Source: Gammaproteobacteria bacterium (lineage in GTDB: Bacteria > Pseudomonadota > Gammaproteobacteria > Eutrophobiales > Eutrophobiaceae). From it: 49,934 nucleotides of DNA. A model generated the notes under the pieces. It saw only the letters and a list, made by a program, of their open reading frames with translations, was not told the origin of the DNA and made no database searches. The stretch covers positions 1-49,934 of the forward strand of contig JACPSH010000009.1 of NCBI GenBank assembly GCA_016193395.1. Reading direction: 5' to 3'. The translations under genes were made by a program, and so were the position numbers. Shown piece by piece: positions 40,228-49,934 of this stretch (position 1 is its first letter; each line of letters begins with the position of its first letter).

Positions 40228-40241
40228 TTGCTTTATATCAA
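40228..40241. promoter_or_regulatory. Putative upstream FNR/CRP-family site
   Basis: TTGCTTTATATCAA fits TTGnn-N4-nnCAA, with one half equal to the FNR half-site ATCAA. Its centre is 46 bp upstream of the second site, roughly -87 from the predicted start of transcription. Confidence 0.5.
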
Positions 40242-40378: not shown

Positions 40379-40555
40379 ATGGATACGAATCCCGACCGGC
40401 CGGCCTCGGAGCCGGAACCGCCCGAACGCATCCCCTTCATGCAGCGGCTGATGGATAATCCCTTTCTGCTGTTGTTTCTCGGTGTCACGATCCCGACCGT
40501 GCTCTACGTGATTTGGGGAGTCATGGAGATCGTGCAGATCCCCATTTCCAAGTAG
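40379..40555 (+). CDS. Small single-TM protein, possible oxidase accessory subunit
   Basis: 58 aa: a proline- and glutamate-rich N-terminus (PDRPASEPEPPERIP) and one TM helix (PFLLLFLGVTIPTVLYVIWGVMEIV). It starts MDTNPDRPAS and ends 10 nt before subunit II. Size and position resemble subunit IIa-type small proteins of B-family heme-copper oxidases, but there is no sequence proof. Confidence 0.75.
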   Translation: MDTNPDRPASEPEPPERIPFMQRLMDNPFLLLFLGVTIPTVLYVIWGVMEIVQIPISK

Positions 40556-40565
40556 GAGTCACTCC

Positions 40566-41099
40566 ATGTCCATCTGGCCTCCCGAACAGAAAATATGGTG
40601 GCACGAACCGATCGCAAAGATCGAGATTGTCTGGATCGTCGTCGCCTTTCTATGGGGAGTGGCGATGTTTTTCATGATGATTTACTGGCATGGAGCCGGC
40701 GAACAGAACCTTTCCAACGAGGCCTACCGCACGTCGCCGGAAGCGTATGCGGCCAAGGCCCAGGCGATGATCGACCAGTACACGGTGCGCGATGAAGGCG
40801 GCTATCCGGTTGTACACCCGCCGGCGGGGAGCGAAGTCTATCTGATCGCCAGACTCTGGCAATGGTGGCCTATCCTCGAATTCGAAAAAAACCAGTCGTA
40901 CCGGCTGCATATCTCTTCCATGGACTGGCTACACGGCTTTTCGCTGCAACCCACCAACATCAATCTGCAGATCCATCCGGGTTACGACATGGTACTGACG
41001 GTCACGCCGGATCAGTCCGGCCAATTCGGCGTCGTGTGCAACGAATTCTGCGGAATCGGGCACCATACCATGCTCGGCCGGATATACGTCGTCGAATAA
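40566..41099 (+). CDS. Heme-copper oxidoreductase subunit II with CuA
   Basis: 177-aa B-family-type subunit II: one N-terminal TM helix (about 18-42) and a periplasmic cupredoxin domain. All CuA ligands are present: His123 (DWLHGF), Cys158, Glu160, Cys162, His166, Met169 (CNEFCGIGHHTM), so it should take electrons from cytochrome c. Short length and single TM resemble ba3 subunit II or NorS of the sNOR type, not the two-TM A-family form. Upstream neighbour 10 nt away, downstream subunit I 14 nt away. Confidence 0.93.
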   Translation: MSIWPPEQKIWWHEPIAKIEIVWIVVAFLWGVAMFFMMIYWHGAGEQNLSNEAYRTSPEAYAAKAQAMIDQYTVRDEGGYPVVHPPAGSEVYLIARLWQWWPILEFEKNQSYRLHISSMDWLHGFSLQPTNINLQIHPGYDMVLTVTPDQSGQFGVVCNEFCGIGHHTMLGRIYVVE

Positions 41100-41113: not shown

Positions 41114-42796
41114 ATGCCTGCACGAGAACAATTCCGGACCTGCCCGGCGACCGGATTGAAAATTCACTTGCCGGCGGAAAAATTGATCAAGGCCAATGCC
41201 GTCGCTGCCGTCGTCTTTCTCGCGATCGGTGGACTGTTCGGCCTGCTGGTGGCGCTGACGCGCTGGCCCGCGGTTCATCTGCTCCCCGCCGAATGGTTCT
41301 ATCTGGTTCTGACCGCGCATGGACTGGACGTGCTTCTGGTCTGGATCATCTTCTTTGAAATGGCGGTCCTGTACTTCGCTTCGGCAATCCTCCTGAACTC
41401 ACGCATCGCGGCCCCCAAGGCCGCCTGGACCGGTTTCTGGATGATGCTTGCCGGCGCGGTCATCACCAACATCGCGGTCCTTCAGGGCAAGTCCAGCGTG
41501 ATGTTCACTTCCTATGTGCCGATGCAGGCGCAACCGCATTTTTACCTCGGCATCATCCTGTTTGCCGTCGGAGCCCTGATCGGCTGCTTCGTATTCTTCG
41601 GCACCCTGGTGATCGCCAAGGAAGAACATACTTACGAGGGCTCCGTCCCGCTCGTTACGTTCGGCGCACTGACCGCCGCGATCATCGCGGTGTTTACGAT
41701 TGCTTCCGGCGCGATCATACTCATCCCGACGCTGCTCTGGTCCCTGAAAATCGTGAGCACCATCGATCCTCTCATGTATAAGGCCGTCTGGTGGGCGATG
41801 GGACATTCTTCGCAACAAATCAATGTCTCGGCTCACGTGGCGATCTGGTATGCCATTGCCGCGATCGTGCTCGGGGCCAAACCCATTTCCGAGAAGGTCA
41901 GCCGCCTGGCCTTCCTGATGTACATCCTCTTCCTGCAGTTGGCCAGCGCCCACCACCTGCTGGTGGAACCCGGCATCAGCTCGGAATGGAAGATCTTCAA
42001 TACCAGCTATGCCATGTATCTCGCGGTACTGGGCAGCCTGGTGCATGGCATGACTGTGCCGGGTTCCATCGAGGCCGCGCAACGCATGAAGGGATTCAAC
42101 AACGGGCTGTTCGAATGGCTGCGCAAGGCGCCATGGGGCAATCCGGCGTTCGCCGGCATGTTCCTGTCACTCATCCTGTTCGGATTTCTGGGCGGTATCT
42201 CCGGCGTCGTGCTCGGCACCGAGCAGATCAATCTCATCATGCACAATACGATGTATGTGCCGGGCCACTTCCACGCCACGGTCGTGACCGGGACAACACT
42301 GGCGTTTATGGCCCTCACCTACTTGCTCGTGCCGTTGATTTTCCAGCGGGAACTCATATTTCCGCGGCTGGCGAAACTCCAGCCCTATCTGTTCGCGCTG
42401 GGCGCGGCCGGGATCTCGCTTTTTATGATGGGCGCAGGGACCCTGGGCGTGTCCCGCCGGCACTGGGACATCACTTTCGCGGATGCGCCGCTTGGTTTTG
42501 AGTATCCGGGCGCCGCTTTCCTGATGATGGGACTGAACGGGATCGCGGCGGTCCTGGCGGCCCTTGGGGGACTGATTTTCATTGTTGTCGTGGTCGGTTC
42601 GATTCTGTACGGCAAGAAGATCGAGGGCGGCGCAGCGGCGGGACCAAAGCCGGCGGCGGTCGTCGGCAAGTATGGCAGCGCGGGCACGCTGGCCATCCCC
42701 GGCACGGCCGTGCTGGTCACGGTATTTTTCATCGCATTTGTGCTGTATTACTTTGTGAACTGGAAGTACCTGGCCGAAGTCTGGCCATTACGGTGA
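41114..42796 (+). CDS. Heme-copper oxidoreductase subunit I lacking the active-site Tyr (NO reductase-like)
   Basis: 560-aa membrane protein with 12-14 predicted helices. Six His ligands fit the superfamily: His69 (low-spin heme, TAHG), His231, His280 and His281 (CuB), His385 and His387 (GHFH, hemes). The oxygen-reductase motif HPxVY, whose Tyr is cross-linked to the CuB His, reads HSSQQ here, so Tyr is replaced by Gln235. This argues for an NO reductase-like (sNOR/eNOR-type) or otherwise divergent enzyme rather than a standard ba3 oxidase. Start MPAREQFRTC at 41114; the open frame before it overlaps subunit II. The downstream GTGA overlap couples it to SCO. Confidence 0.92.
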   Translation: MPAREQFRTCPATGLKIHLPAEKLIKANAVAAVVFLAIGGLFGLLVALTRWPAVHLLPAEWFYLVLTAHGLDVLLVWIIFFEMAVLYFASAILLNSRIAAPKAAWTGFWMMLAGAVITNIAVLQGKSSVMFTSYVPMQAQPHFYLGIILFAVGALIGCFVFFGTLVIAKEEHTYEGSVPLVTFGALTAAIIAVFTIASGAIILIPTLLWSLKIVSTIDPLMYKAVWWAMGHSSQQINVSAHVAIWYAIAAIVLGAKPISEKVSRLAFLMYILFLQLASAHHLLVEPGISSEWKIFNTSYAMYLAVLGSLVHGMTVPGSIEAAQRMKGFNNGLFEWLRKAPWGNPAFAGMFLSLILFGFLGGISGVVLGTEQINLIMHNTMYVPGHFHATVVTGTTLAFMALTYLLVPLIFQRELIFPRLAKLQPYLFALGAAGISLFMMGAGTLGVSRRHWDITFADAPLGFEYPGAAFLMMGLNGIAAVLAALGGLIFIVVVVGSILYGKKIEGGAAAGPKPAAVVGKYGSAGTLAIPGTAVLVTVFFIAFVLYYFVNWKYLAEVWPLR

Positions 42797-43695
42797 GGCG
42801 TATCCAACCCGCTGCAAGCCGCTATTACCGGCAACCGGAACGGCGAGCGCCACGAAATTCCGCACGCTGCGTTCTTGCAGAGGCGGCCTGGTCCTGGCTC
42901 CTCGTGGTCTTCATCGCCTCCTATGCGGCGACTTGCCGCGCGGAGCCGCACGATTTCACGGCGTTCAGCCGGGAACGCGCCCTTGCGTACAGTCAGGCGG
43001 CCTTGGGCCGCACCGTCGGCGCACACCGCTTTTTAAATCACAACGGCGAAGCGGTTGAACTTGACCGCTTTCACGGCAGGCCGCTGGTCGTCAGCCTGAT
43101 TTACACGAGCTGTTACCACACCTGCCCGGCCTTGACCCGCAACCTCGCGCACGCCGTTGACGTCGCGCGCGAGGCTTTGGGCGAGGACAGCTTTCGCGTG
43201 GTCAGCATCGGATTCGACTCCGCGGTGGATACGCCTGCCCGCATGAACGAGTACGCCAGGGAGCAGGGGATCTCGGTGCCCGGCTGGGACTTTCTGAGCG
43301 GTGAGGAGGCAACGATCAGGGAGCTCAGCGAGGATCTCGGCTTCATCTTCTTCCCATCACCTAAAGGCTTCGACCATCTCGCGCAGACCACCATCATCGA
43401 CACCGGGGGACGGGTATATCGGCAGGTTTACGGCAACACATTCGAGACGCCGCAACTGGTGGAACCGCTGAAGGAACTCCTGTTTGGCACGGCGGCGCGC
43501 CTGCCGGTGACGGTATCCGACTGGATCGACAACATCCGCCTGTTCTGCACGATTTACGACCCGAGCACCGGACGTTACCGGTTTGATTATTCGGTCCTGG
43601 TCAGCGTGGTTGCCGGCCTGCTCTGTCTCGGCATGGTCATGACCTTTGTCGTCCACGCGTGGCGTACCCGTGGCCGTTCCAAGCCGGTAGCCTGA
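42793..43695 (+). CDS. SCO1/SenC/PrrC family copper chaperone
   Basis: 300-aa membrane-anchored thioredoxin-fold protein that helps load CuA. Metal ligands: Cys107 and Cys111 in SCYHTCP, and His195 in GFDHLAQ. An N-terminal TM/signal segment (about 33-49) and, unusually, a C-terminal TM helix (about 268-288, VLVSVVAGLLCLGMVMTFVV) bracket the domain; most SCO proteins have only the N-terminal anchor. The GTG start overlaps the subunit I stop. Its place after subunits II and I matches norS-norY-senC in ammonia oxidisers. Confidence 0.92.
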   Translation: MRRIQPAASRYYRQPERRAPRNSARCVLAEAAWSWLLVVFIASYAATCRAEPHDFTAFSRERALAYSQAALGRTVGAHRFLNHNGEAVELDRFHGRPLVVSLIYTSCYHTCPALTRNLAHAVDVAREALGEDSFRVVSIGFDSAVDTPARMNEYAREQGISVPGWDFLSGEEATIRELSEDLGFIFFPSPKGFDHLAQTTIIDTGGRVYRQVYGNTFETPQLVEPLKELLFGTAARLPVTVSDWIDNIRLFCTIYDPSTGRYRFDYSVLVSVVAGLLCLGMVMTFVVHAWRTRGRSKPVA

Positions 43696-43713: not shown

Positions 43714-45261
43714 ATGCGATCCGCCCTTCGAAAGCTGTTCGAATGCGTCGACGTCTGCCTCAATGCCGCCTTCTCCCCGGCTGCCAACCCGATGTTTCAA
43801 CTGGGGGCGATGGGCTGGTTTTTCTACTGGATCGTCGTCGGCAGCGGCATATACCTCTATATCTTCTTCGATACCGGTGTCACCGAGGCCTATGAATCGA
43901 TCCAGGCGCTCACCGAGTCCCAATGGTACGCGGGCGGTATCATGCGCAGCCTGCATCGCTACGCATCCGACGCGCTCGTGGTCGTCGCCCTGCTGCACGT
44001 TCTGCGTGAATTCGCCGCGGATCGCCTGCATGGCGCGAGGACTTTCACGTGGATCACCGGTGTGGCGCTGTTGTGGTTCATCTATGCCAGTGGGATCACC
44101 GGCTACTGGATCGTATGGGATATGTTCGCCCAATACGTGGCAATCGCCACGGCCGAGTGGCTGGATGCGCTGCCGATCTTTGCCGAACCCATTGCCAGGA
44201 ATTTTCTGCACGACGCAACCTTGAGCGGCCGTTTTTTCACGCTGTTTGTCTTCATCCATATCGTCGTACCGCTGATCATGCTGTTCTTCATGTGGCTGCA
44301 CATTCAGCGACTGTCGCAACCGGCGGTCAATCCACCCAGGCGGCTTGCGCTCGGCACGCTGGCAGGGATGCTGGCGCTGTCCCTGCTCTATCCGGCGACA
44401 AGCCAGGGGCCGGCGGTCCTGACTCAGGTGCCCGCCATCGTCGGGATGGACTGGTTCTATTTCTTTCTCTACCCCTTGCTGGATCGTTATTCCGGCTCCG
44501 CGCTGTGGGCGGTTGTCGCGGGCGGAACGGCACTGCTGGTGTTATTGCCCTGGCTCGCGCGATCGCGACAGGCCCCTCTCCGGGTGGCCAGGGTTGACCT
44601 GCCGAACTGCAATGGTTGCGGTCGATGCGTGGCTGACTGCCCCTTCGGCGCGATCACGTTACAACCGCGCAGCGACGGACTGCCCTACGGCACGGAAGCC
44701 GTGGTCGATCCCGATCTGTGCGTAAGTTGCGGCTTATGTGTCGGCGCATGTCCGACCGCCACGCCATTCCGGCGGCGCAGTAAAATCATCCCCGGCATAG
44801 AGCTTCCGGACTTTCCCATGGCGAAGCTGCGGGAGGACATGATCCGCGTGATGGCGGGGATCGAGGGATCCGCCCGCGTGCTGGTCGTCGCCTGTACAAA
44901 GGGTAACAGTGCCCTAACCGTCCAGGGCGACGGGTTCGGCATGGTATCGATGCCGTGCGTGGGTATGTTGCCTCCCTCCTTCATCGACTTTGCGTTGAGC
45001 CGTCGTCACGCCGATGGCGTCCTGTTGAGCGGCTGTGCCGACAACGATTGCTTCCATCGTCTCGGACAGCGCTGGACACGCATGCGGATCGAGGCGGAGA
45101 GAGATCCGGCGCTGCGCGCACGTGTGCCGCGCGACCGCGTTGCCATCAACCAGCAGGACACGGTCGGTGGCACATTGAACCGCCAGGTGCTGGCGTTTCA
45201 GCAGCGCCTTGCAAACTACACGGACCCGGGCCAGGGCGGGAATCGAACATGCGTCAATTAG
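43714..45261 (+). CDS. Cytochrome b - 2x[4Fe-4S] ferredoxin - MvhD-like fusion protein
   Basis: 515-aa three-part redox protein. (1) Residues 1-285: cytochrome b/b6-like membrane domain with heme ligand pairs His81/His95 and His182/His196 (each x13 apart) and an extra TM helix near 265-280. (2) Residues 295-350: two [4Fe-4S] motifs, Cys299/302/305/309 and Cys336/339/342/346. (3) Residues 385-460: MvhD/hydrogenase iron-sulfur subunit-like domain with Cys394, Cys415, Cys441 and Cys446. It could link the quinone pool to a low-potential carrier or to a soluble partner. No Hdr or hydrogenase gene is nearby. It overlaps the next gene by 13 nt. Confidence 0.92.
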   Translation: MRSALRKLFECVDVCLNAAFSPAANPMFQLGAMGWFFYWIVVGSGIYLYIFFDTGVTEAYESIQALTESQWYAGGIMRSLHRYASDALVVVALLHVLREFAADRLHGARTFTWITGVALLWFIYASGITGYWIVWDMFAQYVAIATAEWLDALPIFAEPIARNFLHDATLSGRFFTLFVFIHIVVPLIMLFFMWLHIQRLSQPAVNPPRRLALGTLAGMLALSLLYPATSQGPAVLTQVPAIVGMDWFYFFLYPLLDRYSGSALWAVVAGGTALLVLLPWLARSRQAPLRVARVDLPNCNGCGRCVADCPFGAITLQPRSDGLPYGTEAVVDPDLCVSCGLCVGACPTATPFRRRSKIIPGIELPDFPMAKLREDMIRVMAGIEGSARVLVVACTKGNSALTVQGDGFGMVSMPCVGMLPPSFIDFALSRRHADGVLLSGCADNDCFHRLGQRWTRMRIEAERDPALRARVPRDRVAINQQDTVGGTLNRQVLAFQQRLANYTDPGQGGNRTCVN

Positions 45262-45752
45262 CCGCCATCGCCCTGCAGGTTTTGTTCTATATCGCCTTCA
45301 TGGCGGGTGTCGGTTACTTTTCCACCCGTCCAGCCTATACGCATCAGGACCCGGCACTCGCGCTCGTGAAACTGAGTTTCAGCCATGCCGGTGAGCGAAA
45401 AGAGGATTGCCGCCGGCTCAGTCCCGAGGAGATCGCGGACCTGCCGCCCAACATGCGCCGGCCGACGAAGTGCAGCCGCGAACGTGTGCCGCTGTATGTC
45501 GAGCTGCTGCTGGATGACCGGATGCTGTACCGCGCCGAGTTGCCGCCCTCGGGACTGTCCGGGGACGGTGCATCGAGCGTTTATCGGCGTTTTCCCGTGC
45601 CGCCCGGTACGCACAGGTTGACGGCGAAATTGCGCGACACGCGCCGGGAACAGGGATTTGACCACGAACGGTCTGAAACCGTCACGTTGTCCGCGCGCCA
45701 GAATTTCGTCATCGACTTCAAAGCCGATATCGGGGGGTTTCTGTTCCTGTGA
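45249..45752 (+). CDS. Hypothetical membrane-anchored protein
   Basis: 167 aa with an N-terminal TM or signal-anchor (IALQVLFYIAFMAGVGYFS) and a periplasmic beta-rich domain containing two Cys (KEDCRRLSPEE, RPTKCSRERV) about 20 residues apart, which could form a disulfide. The overlap of 13 nt with the cytochrome b fusion indicates co-translation. It may be an accessory part of that protein; the position resembles the membrane orf1 after senC in sNOR clusters only loosely. Family not recognised. Confidence 0.8.
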   Translation: MRQLAAIALQVLFYIAFMAGVGYFSTRPAYTHQDPALALVKLSFSHAGERKEDCRRLSPEEIADLPPNMRRPTKCSRERVPLYVELLLDDRMLYRAELPPSGLSGDGASSVYRRFPVPPGTHRLTAKLRDTRREQGFDHERSETVTLSARQNFVIDFKADIGGFLFL

Positions 45753-45807: not shown

Positions 45808-46203
45808 ATGACGCGGCTCCAATGGCGCGACGAGTATTCGATCGGCATTGCCGACATCGACTACGAACATCGGGAACTGATCGGCTTGATCAACGACCTG
45901 ATCGATGGTATTGCCGAGGACTCCGCTGACGCCGTCATGGATCATCTCGGCGAGATCTACGCGCGGATTGCCGCCCACTTCGCGCTGGAAGAAAAGATCA
46001 TGCGCGAGCGCAATTACGATCAGTATGCGGACCACAAAGCCGATCACGACCGCCTTCTCGATGCGATCCGGGACATCATGGACGAATACGACGACGACGC
46101 ATCGCTGGATAACGACGAATTCGTCGATCGCCTCGATCACTGGTTCACGGACCACTTCCGAACCAAGGATGCGCGCATGCACAAACAACTCTCCACCGCA
46201 TGA
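45808..46203 (+). CDS. Bacteriohemerythrin
   Basis: 131-aa four-helix di-iron oxygen- (or NO-) binding protein. All seven iron ligands are visible: His21 (DYEH), His57, Glu61 (HFALEE), His76, His80 (HKADH), His116 (HWFTDH) and Asp121. Start MTRLQWRDEY at 45808 follows GGCGGGG; an in-frame ATG at 45778 would add ten residues. It lies between the hypothetical protein and nnrS; bacteriohemerythrins help protect against or deliver O2, and some proposals include NO. Confidence 0.93.
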   Translation: MTRLQWRDEYSIGIADIDYEHRELIGLINDLIDGIAEDSADAVMDHLGEIYARIAAHFALEEKIMRERNYDQYADHKADHDRLLDAIRDIMDEYDDDASLDNDEFVDRLDHWFTDHFRTKDARMHKQLSTA

Positions 46204-46215
46204 GCGCCGCGCCCA

Positions 46216-47496
46216 ATGCAGGATAGGTCCCTCGCGGCGCGCATCCAGGCCCCGGCTGCGGTCATCGACGCCGTTGTTCCCTCGGGGCCTGTGTTGTTCA
46301 GCGCCCCGCACCGGGTCATGTTTCTTGCGGGCACGCTGCAACTCCTCCTGACCCTGCTGTTCTGGTCAGTCGAACTCCTTGGCCGGCACACCCTGCTGTG
46401 GCCGCCGCTGGCCACGAGCGTGCCGACCACATGGGTGCATGCATTTCTGATGTTGTACGGCGTATTCCCCTTCTTCATTTTCGGCTTCCTGATGACCACG
46501 TATCCAAAGTGGCTGCAGACTGCCCCGGTGCCACCCCGGATGTATCTCGCCAGCTTCTGGCTCCTCTGTGGCGGAACCGTCACTGTCTATGCCGGCCTCA
46601 TCCTGCCCCGTCCCGTCATCGAGGGCGGCGTCATCATGTTTCTCTGCGGCTGGGCGGTGACCGCCTGCGCCCTCTGGAATGTTTATCTGCATCCCGGCAA
46701 ACCATGCTCGGCGTATGAAACCATTCTCAGCCTTGCGCTGCTCAGCGGCTTCGCGGGCGCGTGCAGCGGCCTGTACTGGCTGATAGACGGCGACCCGCTG
46801 GCGTTTCGGATCATGCTCGTCGTCGGCTTGTGGCTGTTCCTGTTACCGGTATTGATTACGGTTTCGCTCCGGATGATTCCGTTTTTCGCAAGCTGCGTCC
46901 TGGATCGCTACACCATGCGCAGACCGGCCTGGTCGCTGCCGCTGATCGCGGGCTGCCTTGCCGGTCATGCGCTGCTGGAAGTCATGGGCATGCCGCAGTG
47001 GCTGTTCCTGTTCGATGTCCCGCTTGCCGGAGCCGTCTTGTACCTGTCCTGGATCTGGGAAATTCGCCGCGGCTTCCGCGTCCCGCTGCTGGCGATGTTG
47101 CACGTGGCGTTTCTCTGGTGCGGAATCGGTGCTCTTCTATACAGCATACAGAGCCTGGTGTGGCTGCTTGGCGGCGGCATCGTCCTGGGCAAGGCGCCGC
47201 TGCACGCGCTCGGACTGGGTTTCGTGACATCCATGGTACTGGCCATGGCGAGCCGCGTGAGCCTCGGGCACTCCGGCCGCCCGTTGACAGCCACCCGTGT
47301 GACACTGGTCTGCTTCGCGTTCCTGCAATTTGCCGTATTACTGCGCATCGCAAGCGAATGGCCGTTCATCGGCGCCGCTGCGTCCGCTTACTGGAACACG
47401 GCCGCCGCCTTCCTGGGCGTGTTTATCATGGCGCTGTGGACATGGCTGTATTTGCCGATATACCTGACACCCCGCGTCGACGGGAAACCCGGCTGA
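46216..47496 (+). CDS. nnrS: NnrS family membrane protein
   Basis: 426-aa heme/copper membrane protein with about 12 hydrophobic helices. NnrS is linked to nitric oxide stress in denitrifiers and Vibrio. Conserved blocks: FSAPHRVMFLAGTLQLL, HAFLMLYGVFPFFIFGFLMTTYPKW, MIPFFASCVLDRY, and HALGLGFVTSMVLAMASRVSLGHSGRPL. The first and last of these include His residues typical of the family. Start 46216 is 12 nt past the hemerythrin stop. Its presence is the strongest single hint that the operon concerns NO. Confidence 0.94.
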   Translation: MQDRSLAARIQAPAAVIDAVVPSGPVLFSAPHRVMFLAGTLQLLLTLLFWSVELLGRHTLLWPPLATSVPTTWVHAFLMLYGVFPFFIFGFLMTTYPKWLQTAPVPPRMYLASFWLLCGGTVTVYAGLILPRPVIEGGVIMFLCGWAVTACALWNVYLHPGKPCSAYETILSLALLSGFAGACSGLYWLIDGDPLAFRIMLVVGLWLFLLPVLITVSLRMIPFFASCVLDRYTMRRPAWSLPLIAGCLAGHALLEVMGMPQWLFLFDVPLAGAVLYLSWIWEIRRGFRVPLLAMLHVAFLWCGIGALLYSIQSLVWLLGGGIVLGKAPLHALGLGFVTSMVLAMASRVSLGHSGRPLTATRVTLVCFAFLQFAVLLRIASEWPFIGAAASAYWNTAAAFLGVFIMALWTWLYLPIYLTPRVDGKPG

Positions 47497-47534: not shown

Positions 47535-47843
47535 ATGAATAACCATTGCAGAATCGGCGTGGCCCTGATCGCCGCCGTTGTGGCCGTCCCGGCGTTTGCC
47601 GCCGGAGACGCCGCCGCAGGCAAGGCAAAATCGGCCATCTGCGCCGCCTGTCACGGCGCCGAGGGCTTGAGCCCTAACGATCTCTGGCCCAATCTTGCCG
47701 GTCAGAAATACGGATACCTCGTGAAGCAGATGAAGGCATTCAAGGACGGCAGCCGGAGCGATCCGATGATGTCGCCCATGGCCGCGCCACTGACGGACGT
47801 TGACATCGAGAACGCGGCGGCCTTCTTCAGCAGCCTCAAGTAG
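47535..47843 (+). CDS. Class I cytochrome c (c553-like)
   Basis: 102-aa periplasmic monoheme cytochrome. Signal peptide (MNNHCRIGVALIAAVVAVPAFA) followed by GDAAAGKAKSAICAACHG with heme motif CAACH (residues 36-40) and a likely Met ligand in MSPMAAPL. GGAGGAAATAACCG precedes the ATG. It is a good candidate electron donor to the CuA subunit of the operon, or acceptor for a flavin oxidase like those at the right end of the window. Confidence 0.93.
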   Translation: MNNHCRIGVALIAAVVAVPAFAAGDAAAGKAKSAICAACHGAEGLSPNDLWPNLAGQKYGYLVKQMKAFKDGSRSDPMMSPMAAPLTDVDIENAAAFFSSLK

Positions 47844-47897: not shown

Positions 47898-49142
47898 ATG
47901 AACAACGACATTTTTTCCGATCTCTATAAACAGCGGCTGCAGCGCATTGAAAATGCCATTGCCCTGCGCGAACCCGACCGGACGCCGTTTGTCTATTCCA
48001 CGAATTTCTGGGCCGCGCGGCTGGCCGGCATCACCTTCGAAGAGGCGATGTATGACATCGACCGGTACGTGGAGGCCAGCAAGCGCGCGATCCATCTCCT
48101 GCAGCCGGACGCATTCTCGGCGATCCTGTTTCCGTTCGCCCAGACGCTGGATGAGCTGGACTTCAAACCGGTCAGGTGGCCGGGCCACGGGGCGGATCCG
48201 AACGTCACCTTCCAGTACATCGACCAGGAGCTGATGTCGGCGGAGGAGTACGACGATTATATTCTCGACCCGACGGGCTTCTATCTGAAGAAATACCTGC
48301 CGCGCATCGCCGGCGCGTTCAGGGTGTTTGAAGATTTTCCGCAATTCGTGACCTACCCGGAATGGGACCTGGTCGGATCGGTGGCCGCCTTCGCCAACCC
48401 GGCCCTGCAAAAGGGATTACAGCGCCTGTTCGAGATAGGCGAGCGCACGGCGCAGAACTACCGGCGCATCGGCGCCTTCGCCAGGGACATGAATGAGGCA
48501 GGATACCCGCTCGCCGCCGGGGCGTTCTGCAAGGCGCCGTACGATCTGTTCGTCGATTTCATGCGCGGCTCCAAGGGCGGGATACTCGACATGTTCCGTC
48601 ACCGGGACCGTCTCCTGGAGGCCATGGCGAAGGCGCGGGTCCTGCTGTTGCGGAACGTGGAGGCCGCGACCAGGCGTTCGGGCTGCCGCTACGTCTTCAT
48701 CCCGCTGCACTGGGGACTGGACAGCTTTATGTCGCCCGATCAGTTCAACACCTTTTACTGGCCGGAACTGAGAAAGGTCATGATGAGCCTGATCGAGCGC
48801 GACCTGGTGCCCTGCGTGTTCTGGGAGGGCGTGTGCAATTCGCGCCTGGAAATCATTGCCGACGTTCCGCCGGGCAAGGTCATCTACAAGTTCGAGGCAA
48901 CCGACCTCCTCCGGGCGAAGGAGGTGCTGGGCAATGTCGCCTGCCTGCGCGGCAACGTGCCGGCGTCGTTACTGACGACGGGGATCGCGGAGGAGGTAGA
49001 CAGCTATTGCCGGAACTTGATCGAGAAGGTCGGCAAGGGCGGCGGCTTTATCCTCGACGGCGCCGCAGGCATTCCCGACGAGGCAAAAGTGGAGAATGTG
49101 ATCGCCATGGCCGAATCCGTCCGGAAATACTCCGCTTACTAG
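47898..49142 (+). CDS. Uroporphyrinogen decarboxylase (URO-D) family protein, role unknown
   Basis: 414-aa protein with a URO-D/CmuA/MtaA-type TIM barrel. It is longer and more divergent than HemE, lacks the N-terminal HemE motif RQAGRYLPEY, and has no fused corrinoid domain. Visible blocks: TPFVYSTNFWAARLAGITFEEAMYD, APYDLFVDFMRGSKGG, FIPLHWGLDSFMSPDQFNTFYWPELRK, CVFWEGVCNSRLEI. Such paralogues include cobamide-dependent methyltransferases for methoxy-aromatics and others. A metal-binding His-x-Cys motif typical of MtaA is not obvious. Not heme synthesis, in my reading. Confidence 0.85.
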   Translation: MNNDIFSDLYKQRLQRIENAIALREPDRTPFVYSTNFWAARLAGITFEEAMYDIDRYVEASKRAIHLLQPDAFSAILFPFAQTLDELDFKPVRWPGHGADPNVTFQYIDQELMSAEEYDDYILDPTGFYLKKYLPRIAGAFRVFEDFPQFVTYPEWDLVGSVAAFANPALQKGLQRLFEIGERTAQNYRRIGAFARDMNEAGYPLAAGAFCKAPYDLFVDFMRGSKGGILDMFRHRDRLLEAMAKARVLLLRNVEAATRRSGCRYVFIPLHWGLDSFMSPDQFNTFYWPELRKVMMSLIERDLVPCVFWEGVCNSRLEIIADVPPGKVIYKFEATDLLRAKEVLGNVACLRGNVPASLLTTGIAEEVDSYCRNLIEKVGKGGGFILDGAAGIPDEAKVENVIAMAESVRKYSAY

Positions 49143-49321: not shown

Positions 49322-49711
49322 CTAAGACGTTTTCAAACTGCCGCCGTCGGTCTGAAAGTATTGCTGGAACCAGGTCAAGAGGCGCTCGTCCAGGCTAAGG
49401 TCGCCTCCGTTACACGCGCCGTTCCGGAAGGAGTCCAACATGCCACGGATGCGCTCCAGGAGTTTCTCGTGCTCCGCCTTGTGCAGGGAATACAGTCGAT
49501 ATCCCCATTTGCGCATGAATTTCTCCTCCAGCGCAAAATGGCCGCGGACCCTCTGGTAGAGCTGCCCCAGGCAGTCGAACACAGCGTCCCGGGACAGCGT
49601 GCGCCGCAGGTTTTCGCATGCGGCATTGATGGTATCGATGAGCAGCCGGTGCTCGTAGTCGACGGATTCGATGCCCGACCTGTATTCGTCCTTCCACTCA
49701 AGGTAGCGCAT
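49322..49711 (-). CDS. Bacteriohemerythrin variant with altered last-helix ligands
   Basis: 129-aa hemerythrin homologue. His21 (DYEH), His58, Glu62 (HFALEE), His77 and His81 (HKAEH) are kept, but in the fourth helix the usual His is Tyr118 (WFQQYFQ) and the Asp ligand position is shifted (TDG against TKD of the other copy). It may bind one iron or use Tyr. MRYLEWKDEY at 49711 was chosen as start. Convergent with the oxidase remnant and downstream of the FAD oxidase at the window end (31 nt). Confidence 0.9.
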   Translation of the reverse strand: MRYLEWKDEYRSGIESVDYEHRLLIDTINAACENLRRTLSRDAVFDCLGQLYQRVRGHFALEEKFMRKWGYRLYSLHKAEHEKLLERIRGMLDSFRNGACNGGDLSLDERLLTWFQQYFQTDGGSLKTS

Positions 49712-49742
49712 GGAATGGCACCCACCAAACCAATAATACGTA

Positions 49743-49934
49743 CTACAAGTCCTTGAACAATCCAATACCCGGATTGAGGATATTGTCAGGGTCCAGCGCC
49801 TTCTTGATCCGTTTCAGCACCTCGCCATAGGCGCCCGCGTCTTCCAGCGATGGGAACCCGTACTTGAAGCGGAACGGCACGGCGCCGTAATTTTCCATCG
49901 CCGTCTGGAACAACCTCTGGTACTTGTCGCGCAC
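49743..49934 (-). CDS. FAD-linked oxidase, C-terminal part (gene runs past window)
   Basis: C-terminal 63 residues of a PCMH/VAO-type flavoprotein oxidase; the end KKALDPDNILNPGIG is the standard C-terminal block (LDPxxILNPG) of that superfamily. The open frame continues off the right edge, so the first Met seen is not the start. Substrates in the family include 4-alkylphenols, vanillyl alcohol, D-lactate and glycolate; which applies here is not visible. Probably co-transcribed with the variant hemerythrin. Confidence 0.85.
   Translation of the reverse strand: MRDKYQRLFQTAMENYGAVPFRFKYGFPSLEDAGAYGEVLKRIKKALDPDNILNPGIGLFKDL

Follow-up and report, generated by a model that had tools for sequence, protein, structure and literature searches.

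eNOR is a widespread, little-studied nitric oxide reductase, and hence a source of N2O, whose electron supply is usually taken to be the bc1/cytochrome c route. MvhD normally hands electrons inward to HdrA, and the iron-sulphur relay of ferredoxin and MvhD is, to our knowledge, otherwise known from methane-making microbes. The protein described here, encoded in a 49,934-nucleotide stretch of gammaproteobacterial DNA (the window, meaning the whole stretch that was analysed), joins a membrane cytochrome b to such a relay, and lies beside a heme-copper enzyme that we assign to the eNOR type. Its membrane part shares with the cytochrome b of bc1/b6f complexes and with ExtP/ExtQ of selenite/tellurite operons the four heme His, helices A-F, and an ef loop, which here has a PEWY-like DW. 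Unlike bc1/b6f, it has Asp for Glu in PEWY, lacks helices G/H, and carries a C-terminal Fe-S relay, and no Rieske gene is recognised nearby in the window's operon as annotated with Pfam. With HdrA2, in which HdrA is fused to MvhD, it has in common a ferredoxin followed by MvhD, but the HdrA flavin domain, HdrBC and the hydrogenase are missing, and the relay is joined instead to the membrane cytochrome b. The neighbouring enzyme resembles eNOR subtype ba3-a1 in having the same Gln in subunit I, a CuA subunit II, and an SCO gene in the operon.

For the protein RME88945.1, a published table (PMC8756737, Table A3) gives the domains cytochrome b6, a DMSOR-beta-like ferredoxin and FlpD; it differs from the fusion in an additional C1 cytochrome c domain, and is known from that domain listing. 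The Rieske/cytochrome b complexes of anammox bacteria (PMC12954380) also attach a cytoplasmic Fe-S/NAD(P) module to a b6-type cytochrome b, but they have Rieske and multiheme c subunits, whereas here there is a single polypeptide, the module is mostly FlpD rather than NAD(P), and the probable partner is eNOR. The parts of the fusion and the partner enzyme are of known kinds. In the literature searched, whose coverage does not extend to the primary eNOR paper (PNAS 2024), the fusion is undescribed save for the bare domain listing of RME88945.1, and neither a cytochrome b-ferredoxin-FlpD partner for eNOR nor a near-obligate tie between the two was found in the accessible texts.

Operon layout and accompanying genes

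The fusion gene is part of an operon with the following features, all on the forward strand and given by their positions in the window.

40228..40241 (+), FNR/DNR-type box TTGCTTTATATCAA, differing from TTGATNNNNATCAA at 1 position, the sole match with at most 1 mismatch in the window
40379..40555 (+), small single-helix membrane protein, first operon gene, small subunit of B-family HCO type (ORF)
40566..41099 (+), predicted eNOR subunit II with CuA motif CNEFCGIGHHTM (PF00116)
41114..42796 (+), predicted eNOR subunit I, B-family heme-copper fold with Gln for the cross-linked Tyr (PF00115, E=3e-68)
42793..43695 (+), SCO/SenC copper chaperone (PF02630)
43714..45261 (+), cytochrome b-ferredoxin-FlpD fusion, 515 aa (ORF, Pfam, conservation)
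43774..44313 (+), within the fusion, b6-type four-His (two heme b) domain, residues 21-200, His81/95/182/196 (PF00033, ExtP-like, PDB cytochrome b6)
44362..44574 (+), within the fusion, subunit-IV-like helices E and F with ef loop, residues 217-287, Asp246-Trp247 (ExtQ-like, hhalign to bc1 cytochrome b)
44605..44760 (+), within the fusion, 2x[4Fe-4S] ferredoxin domain, residues 298-349 (PF12838, 8 Cys in 65/65 relatives)
44893..45156 (+), within the fusion, FlpD/MvhD-type [2Fe-2S] domain, residues 394-481, Cys394/415/441/446 (PF02662, MvhD chains 9sw2_D and 5odc_D)
45249..45752 (+), 167-aa protein, one TM helix and a beta-sandwich (ORF, conservation, structure model)
45808..46203 (+), hemerythrin-like protein (PF01814)
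46216..47496 (+), NnrS (PF05940)
47535..47843 (+), small c-type cytochrome (PF00034)

The FNR/DNR-type box is found 138-151 bases before the start of the first operon gene. Boxes of this type with 0-1 mismatch precede 14 of the 23 eNOR operons examined, against ∼1.1 expected from the summed background; these include 13 of the 15 gammaproteobacterial ones, and an exact box is also located upstream of the host's cytochrome cd1 gene. In ∼25 loci the small membrane protein comes first and is followed by subunit II, subunit I, (heme o synthase), SCO, the fusion, the 167-aa protein, hemerythrin and, often, a small cytochrome c. The small single-helix gene holds first place in nearly all loci, the hemerythrin gene lies 3' of the 167-aa gene in most linked loci, and a homologue of the small cytochrome c gene is located 3' of the hemerythrin gene in several. 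One copy of the locus is on a Defluviimonas plasmid. Downstream of the cytochrome c gene in the window, positions 47898-49142 encode a URO-D-like protein of 414 aa that scores far under the hemE and MtaA/CmuA cut-offs, and an ORF on the opposite strand (49322-49765) resembles, as judged by eye, the operon's hemerythrin-like protein.

The start codon of the 167-aa gene overlaps the end of the fusion gene, and the two genes adjoin even where eNOR is elsewhere. The protein belongs to no Pfam or NCBIfam family; Cys54 and Cys75 are invariant. Its structure model (pLDDT 86) matched general beta-sandwiches, the best being the HGSNAT luminal domain (Z 9.3), with no Rieske or cupredoxin among the structural matches listed, although it may still be either. 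We consider this periplasmic beta-sandwich protein to be probably a partner subunit of the fusion's cytochrome b.

The neighbouring enzyme and its co-occurrence with the fusion

The preliminary description had proposed, as one of two possibilities, an electron link between the fusion and the neighbouring heme-copper enzyme, which it left unidentified. The closest solved structures to subunit I are ba3 oxidases, but where these read GHPIVYFW, subunit I reads GHSSQQIN, and Gln (position 241 in the numbering used here) occupies the site of the catalytic Tyr in 55/55 subunit I homologues. The CuA ligands of subunit II (Cys158, Cys162, His115 and His166) are likewise invariant. In published work, eNOR is recognised by a Gln at the active-site Tyr position (PMC8756737), and the same type, first named ba3-a1 in alphaproteobacteria, where SCO is part of the operon and the catalytic Tyr is lacking, was later reported to be an NO reductase (PMC6431628, PMC8879329). 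Since Gln replaces the catalytic Tyr in all 55 homologues, the enzyme is predicted from its sequence to be an eNOR-type nitric oxide reductase. An sNOR identity, as in norSY-senC operons, was dropped in view of the Gln, rather than Asn, at the diagnostic position.

The host genome encodes two further PF00115 proteins which, from their scores and lengths, look like oxidases, so that eNOR is probably its only heme-copper NO reductase. Cytochrome cd1-type (nirS-like) genes are present, and no full-length NosZ was found in a search with TIGR04246 only. Elsewhere, some genomes contain a second, divergent PF00115 protein (L044:11552-13003, L046:6724-8199, L118:469-1911, L119:11490-12866 and L122:6627-8057) of ∼460-480 aa, with 23-25% identity to eNOR subunit I and with GGGHxLQF or a similar sequence in place of the usual active-site motif. 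In several eNOR operons its gene lies directly 3' of the 167-aa gene or of a second fusion copy; the L122 copy is without an NCBIfam match.

The association of fusion and enzyme was evaluated in 398 Pseudomonadota genomes, 30 with eNOR and 34 with the fusion. The fusion was present in 29 of the 30 eNOR genomes, and eNOR in 29 of the 34 fusion genomes, where ∼2.6 shared genomes would be expected by chance. In the lone eNOR-only genome the contig ends just after SCO, and the five fusion-only genomes have short contigs, contigs that end beside SCO, or incomplete assemblies. Among 58 relatives, the fusion was present in each of the 15 genomes with eNOR. One family has the fusion and the 167-aa gene at a distance from eNOR, yet all remain in the genome; the persistence of fusion and eNOR together even when unlinked indicates that the tie is not mere hitch-hiking, and the minimal unit looks like the fusion plus the 167-aa protein. 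At three such loci (L112, L113 and L115), the unlinked fusion gene is divergent from apparent iscR-iscS-iscU Fe-S assembly genes, recognised by N-terminal sequence only. Distances between fusions correlate with those between subunits I (r=0.92, reached by 0/2000 permutations), a value to which shared ancestry contributes.

These results give a positive answer to the question raised in the preliminary description, whether the genes travel together, and support a tie between the fusion and the neighbouring heme-copper enzyme. Far from being an oddity of an NnrS/hemerythrin operon, the fusion is a standard eNOR companion in Pseudomonadota. That it is a functional partner of eNOR appears very probable to us, and because it is present in nearly every eNOR genome examined, it probably feeds or balances electrons for the N2O-making step.

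The cytochrome b core and its C-terminal modules

The fusion ORF is intact, and Pfam matches above the cut-offs bear out the reading of a 515-aa chain with a cytochrome b, two [4Fe-4S] clusters and an MvhD-like domain: Cytochrome_B at residues 21-200 (E=4e-19), Fer4_7 at 298-349 (E=1e-11), and FlpD at 408-481 (E=1e-8; 35.3 bits against a PF02662 cut-off of 22.3, with other members reaching 62 bits). The three domains of the proposed triple fusion are thus present, but the protein is better described as fourfold, since residues 217-287 add a subunit-IV-like segment that resembles ExtQ in NCBIfam. Full-length relatives are present across many genera. Conservation was assessed in 65 distinct relatives, sampled within Pseudomonadota only, with identity down to ∼42%. 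All 12 Cys (8 in the ferredoxin, 4 in FlpD) are unchanged in 65/65, and no relative was found beside Hdr or hydrogenase genes. For the FlpD domain, Cys415, Cys441 and Cys446 had been named correctly; Cys394 had been missed, and the invariant Cys are four. A chance fusion or an assembly artefact is ruled out by the same domain order in the 65 relatives, together with two independent NAD-type sisters described below.

His81, His95, His182 and His196, the heme ligands in helices B and D, are also invariant, gaps at His81 and His95 being confined to truncated rows. The four-His domain is ExtP-like, and it matches cytochrome b6 in the PDB (E=9e-21). In an hhalign comparison with the bc1 cytochrome b of the same genome, helices A-F aligned, including the ef loop, with MDWF on the Qo motif PVWY, so that DW is at the PEWY position of the Qo site and the first residue is not Pro. 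This Qo-like loop had been overlooked in the preliminary description; its Asp246-Trp247 is kept in 65/65 relatives. The bc1 cytochrome b used here (L002, G000:C34) itself has PVWY in place of PEWY. An AlphaFold model of the fusion built from 12 sequences was poor (pLDDT 59), and with this weak model Foldseek matched bc1 cytochrome b over ∼280-310 columns. Judged by hydropathy and charge, the chain would cross the membrane in six helices with both termini cytoplasmic, which would place the Fe-S domains on the N side of the membrane. In L118, L119, L120 and L121, which belong to one family, two fusion genes occur as a tandem pair, with the 167-aa gene next in line wherever the contig is long enough. 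A cytochrome b works as a dimer, and for this reason the tandem pair may form a heterodimer.

In NCBIfam, residues 291-499 match the ferredoxin-MvhD tail (571-768) of the HdrA2 model, which is 777 residues long, and the FlpD residues align with the PDB MvhD chains 9sw2_D and 5odc_D, with the Cys pattern as in MvhD. The absence of Hdr and hydrogenase genes noted near the fusion holds for the whole genome as regards HdrA and other FlpD proteins, which were sought genome-wide with none found; the NiFe large-subunit model gave one 67-residue partial match only. The usual company of MvhD, a partner HdrA plus hydrogenase or similar, is therefore not seen in the host genome, and a link to Hdr/hydrogenase was rejected.

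The module is, however, not the same in every member. At two loci, L046 and L122, the same cytochrome b core, 43-48% identical to the fusion up to residue ∼287, carries Fer2, FAD_binding_6 and NAD_binding_1 in place of ferredoxin-FlpD, and the gene occupies the same position in an eNOR operon. The L046 genome also holds an FlpD-type fusion with another eNOR operon, L122 has the FlpD and NAD types side by side, and the L046 sister retains a DWFY loop. The NAD type is rare: it is present in 1 of the 398 genomes and, within the window's family, in L046. In BenC, MmoC and NqrF, modules of this kind carry electrons from NAD(P)H to an acceptor. Because the swapped modules belong to NAD(P)H-oxidising reductases, the exchange argues that the C-terminus of the fusion is an exchangeable cytoplasmic electron port, and it is the strongest evidence on the mechanism.

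Direction of electron flow

Our tentative first choice, which we regard as quite possible, is that the fusion is a dedicated electron-entry subunit of the eNOR system, taking electrons from a low-potential donor in the cytoplasm and delivering them to eNOR by way of the quinone pool. A ferredoxin or flavoprotein would reduce the [2Fe-2S] cluster of FlpD, from which electrons would pass through the two [4Fe-4S] clusters to hemes bH and bL and into the quinone pool; the pool would then supply CuA of eNOR, which would reduce 2 NO to N2O. The NAD-type sister, with its [2Fe-2S]-FAD-NAD(P)H module, would perform the same task with NAD(P)H as donor. The basis for this model is the co-occurrence, the correlated distances (r=0.92), the module swap, the inward transfer by MvhD, the cd1 genes and the FNR/DNR-type boxes. 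Against it, the soluble donor to FlpD is only putative and the direction of flow is one that we infer, and, with a bc1 cytochrome b already present in the host, the need for a further route to eNOR is not obvious. The invariant Qo-type Asp-Trp also suggests a different role, since it would be needless in a protein used for input only and fits quinol oxidation.

The suitability of this Asp-Trp for quinol oxidation leads to bifurcation in the opposite direction, which we consider rather unlikely. Quinol would be oxidised at the Qo-like site and its electrons split, one going to eNOR (through CuA or a cytochrome c) and the other travelling through bL, bH and then the Fe-S relay to a low-potential acceptor in the cytoplasm; in this way NO reduction would drive the reduction of ferredoxin or NAD(P)+. 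Besides Asp246-Trp247 at the PEWY position, the existence of sister forms with an NAD(P) module is in keeping with this scheme, as is the very high potential of the NO/N2O couple, and a similar scheme was proposed for the anammox Rieske/cytochrome b complexes with NAD(P) oxidoreductases (PMC12954380). However, no Rieske protein was recognised around the fusion (in the relatives mostly by comparison with the window's proteins only, and in the Defluviimonas record by its own annotation), which leaves the subunit II CuA and the small cytochrome c as the only P-side one-electron acceptors, and the reductase module of the NAD-type sister comes from families known as NAD(P)H oxidisers. That denitrification directly yields low-potential reductant, as ferredoxin or NAD(P)H, by NO-driven bifurcation without Rieske is a possibility that we hold to be slightly less likely still.

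A serious third option, if a doubtful one that ranks below bifurcation, is a role in copper assembly beside SCO, with electrons moving outward to reduce the thiols of SCO, Cu(II), or the two cysteines in the 167-aa protein, and so serving to build the CuA center of eNOR rather than to support catalysis. A precedent is CcoG, a membrane protein of the ferredoxin type that reduces copper when cbb3 oxidase is assembled, and the gene order SCO, fusion, 167-aa protein and the invariant Cys54 and Cys75 are consistent with such a task, but two hemes and a Qo motif exceed what it would need, and the fusion is separated from SCO in the unlinked loci. Least probable is a direct transmembrane wire that bypasses quinone, with cytoplasmic electrons crossing bH and bL to reach CuA or cytochrome c. 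In its favour are the near-obligate association of the fusion with eNOR and the small cytochrome c gene downstream in several operons; against it are the unlinked loci, in which the fusion and 167-aa pair is away from subunits I and II, and the invariant Qo-type ef loop, which points to a quinone site.

If eNOR is served by a dedicated, nearly obligate cytochrome b with a cytoplasmic Fe-S or NAD(P)H port, as in the electron-entry model, NO reduction in these bacteria would be wired directly to the ferredoxin or NAD(P)H pool. This would matter for N2O yields and for how energy is conserved during denitrification, as well as for the way in which HdrA2-type modules were re-used outside methanogenesis. 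The cytochrome b-ferredoxin-FlpD protein is also a simple marker for eNOR genomes in which subunit I is misannotated as an oxidase.
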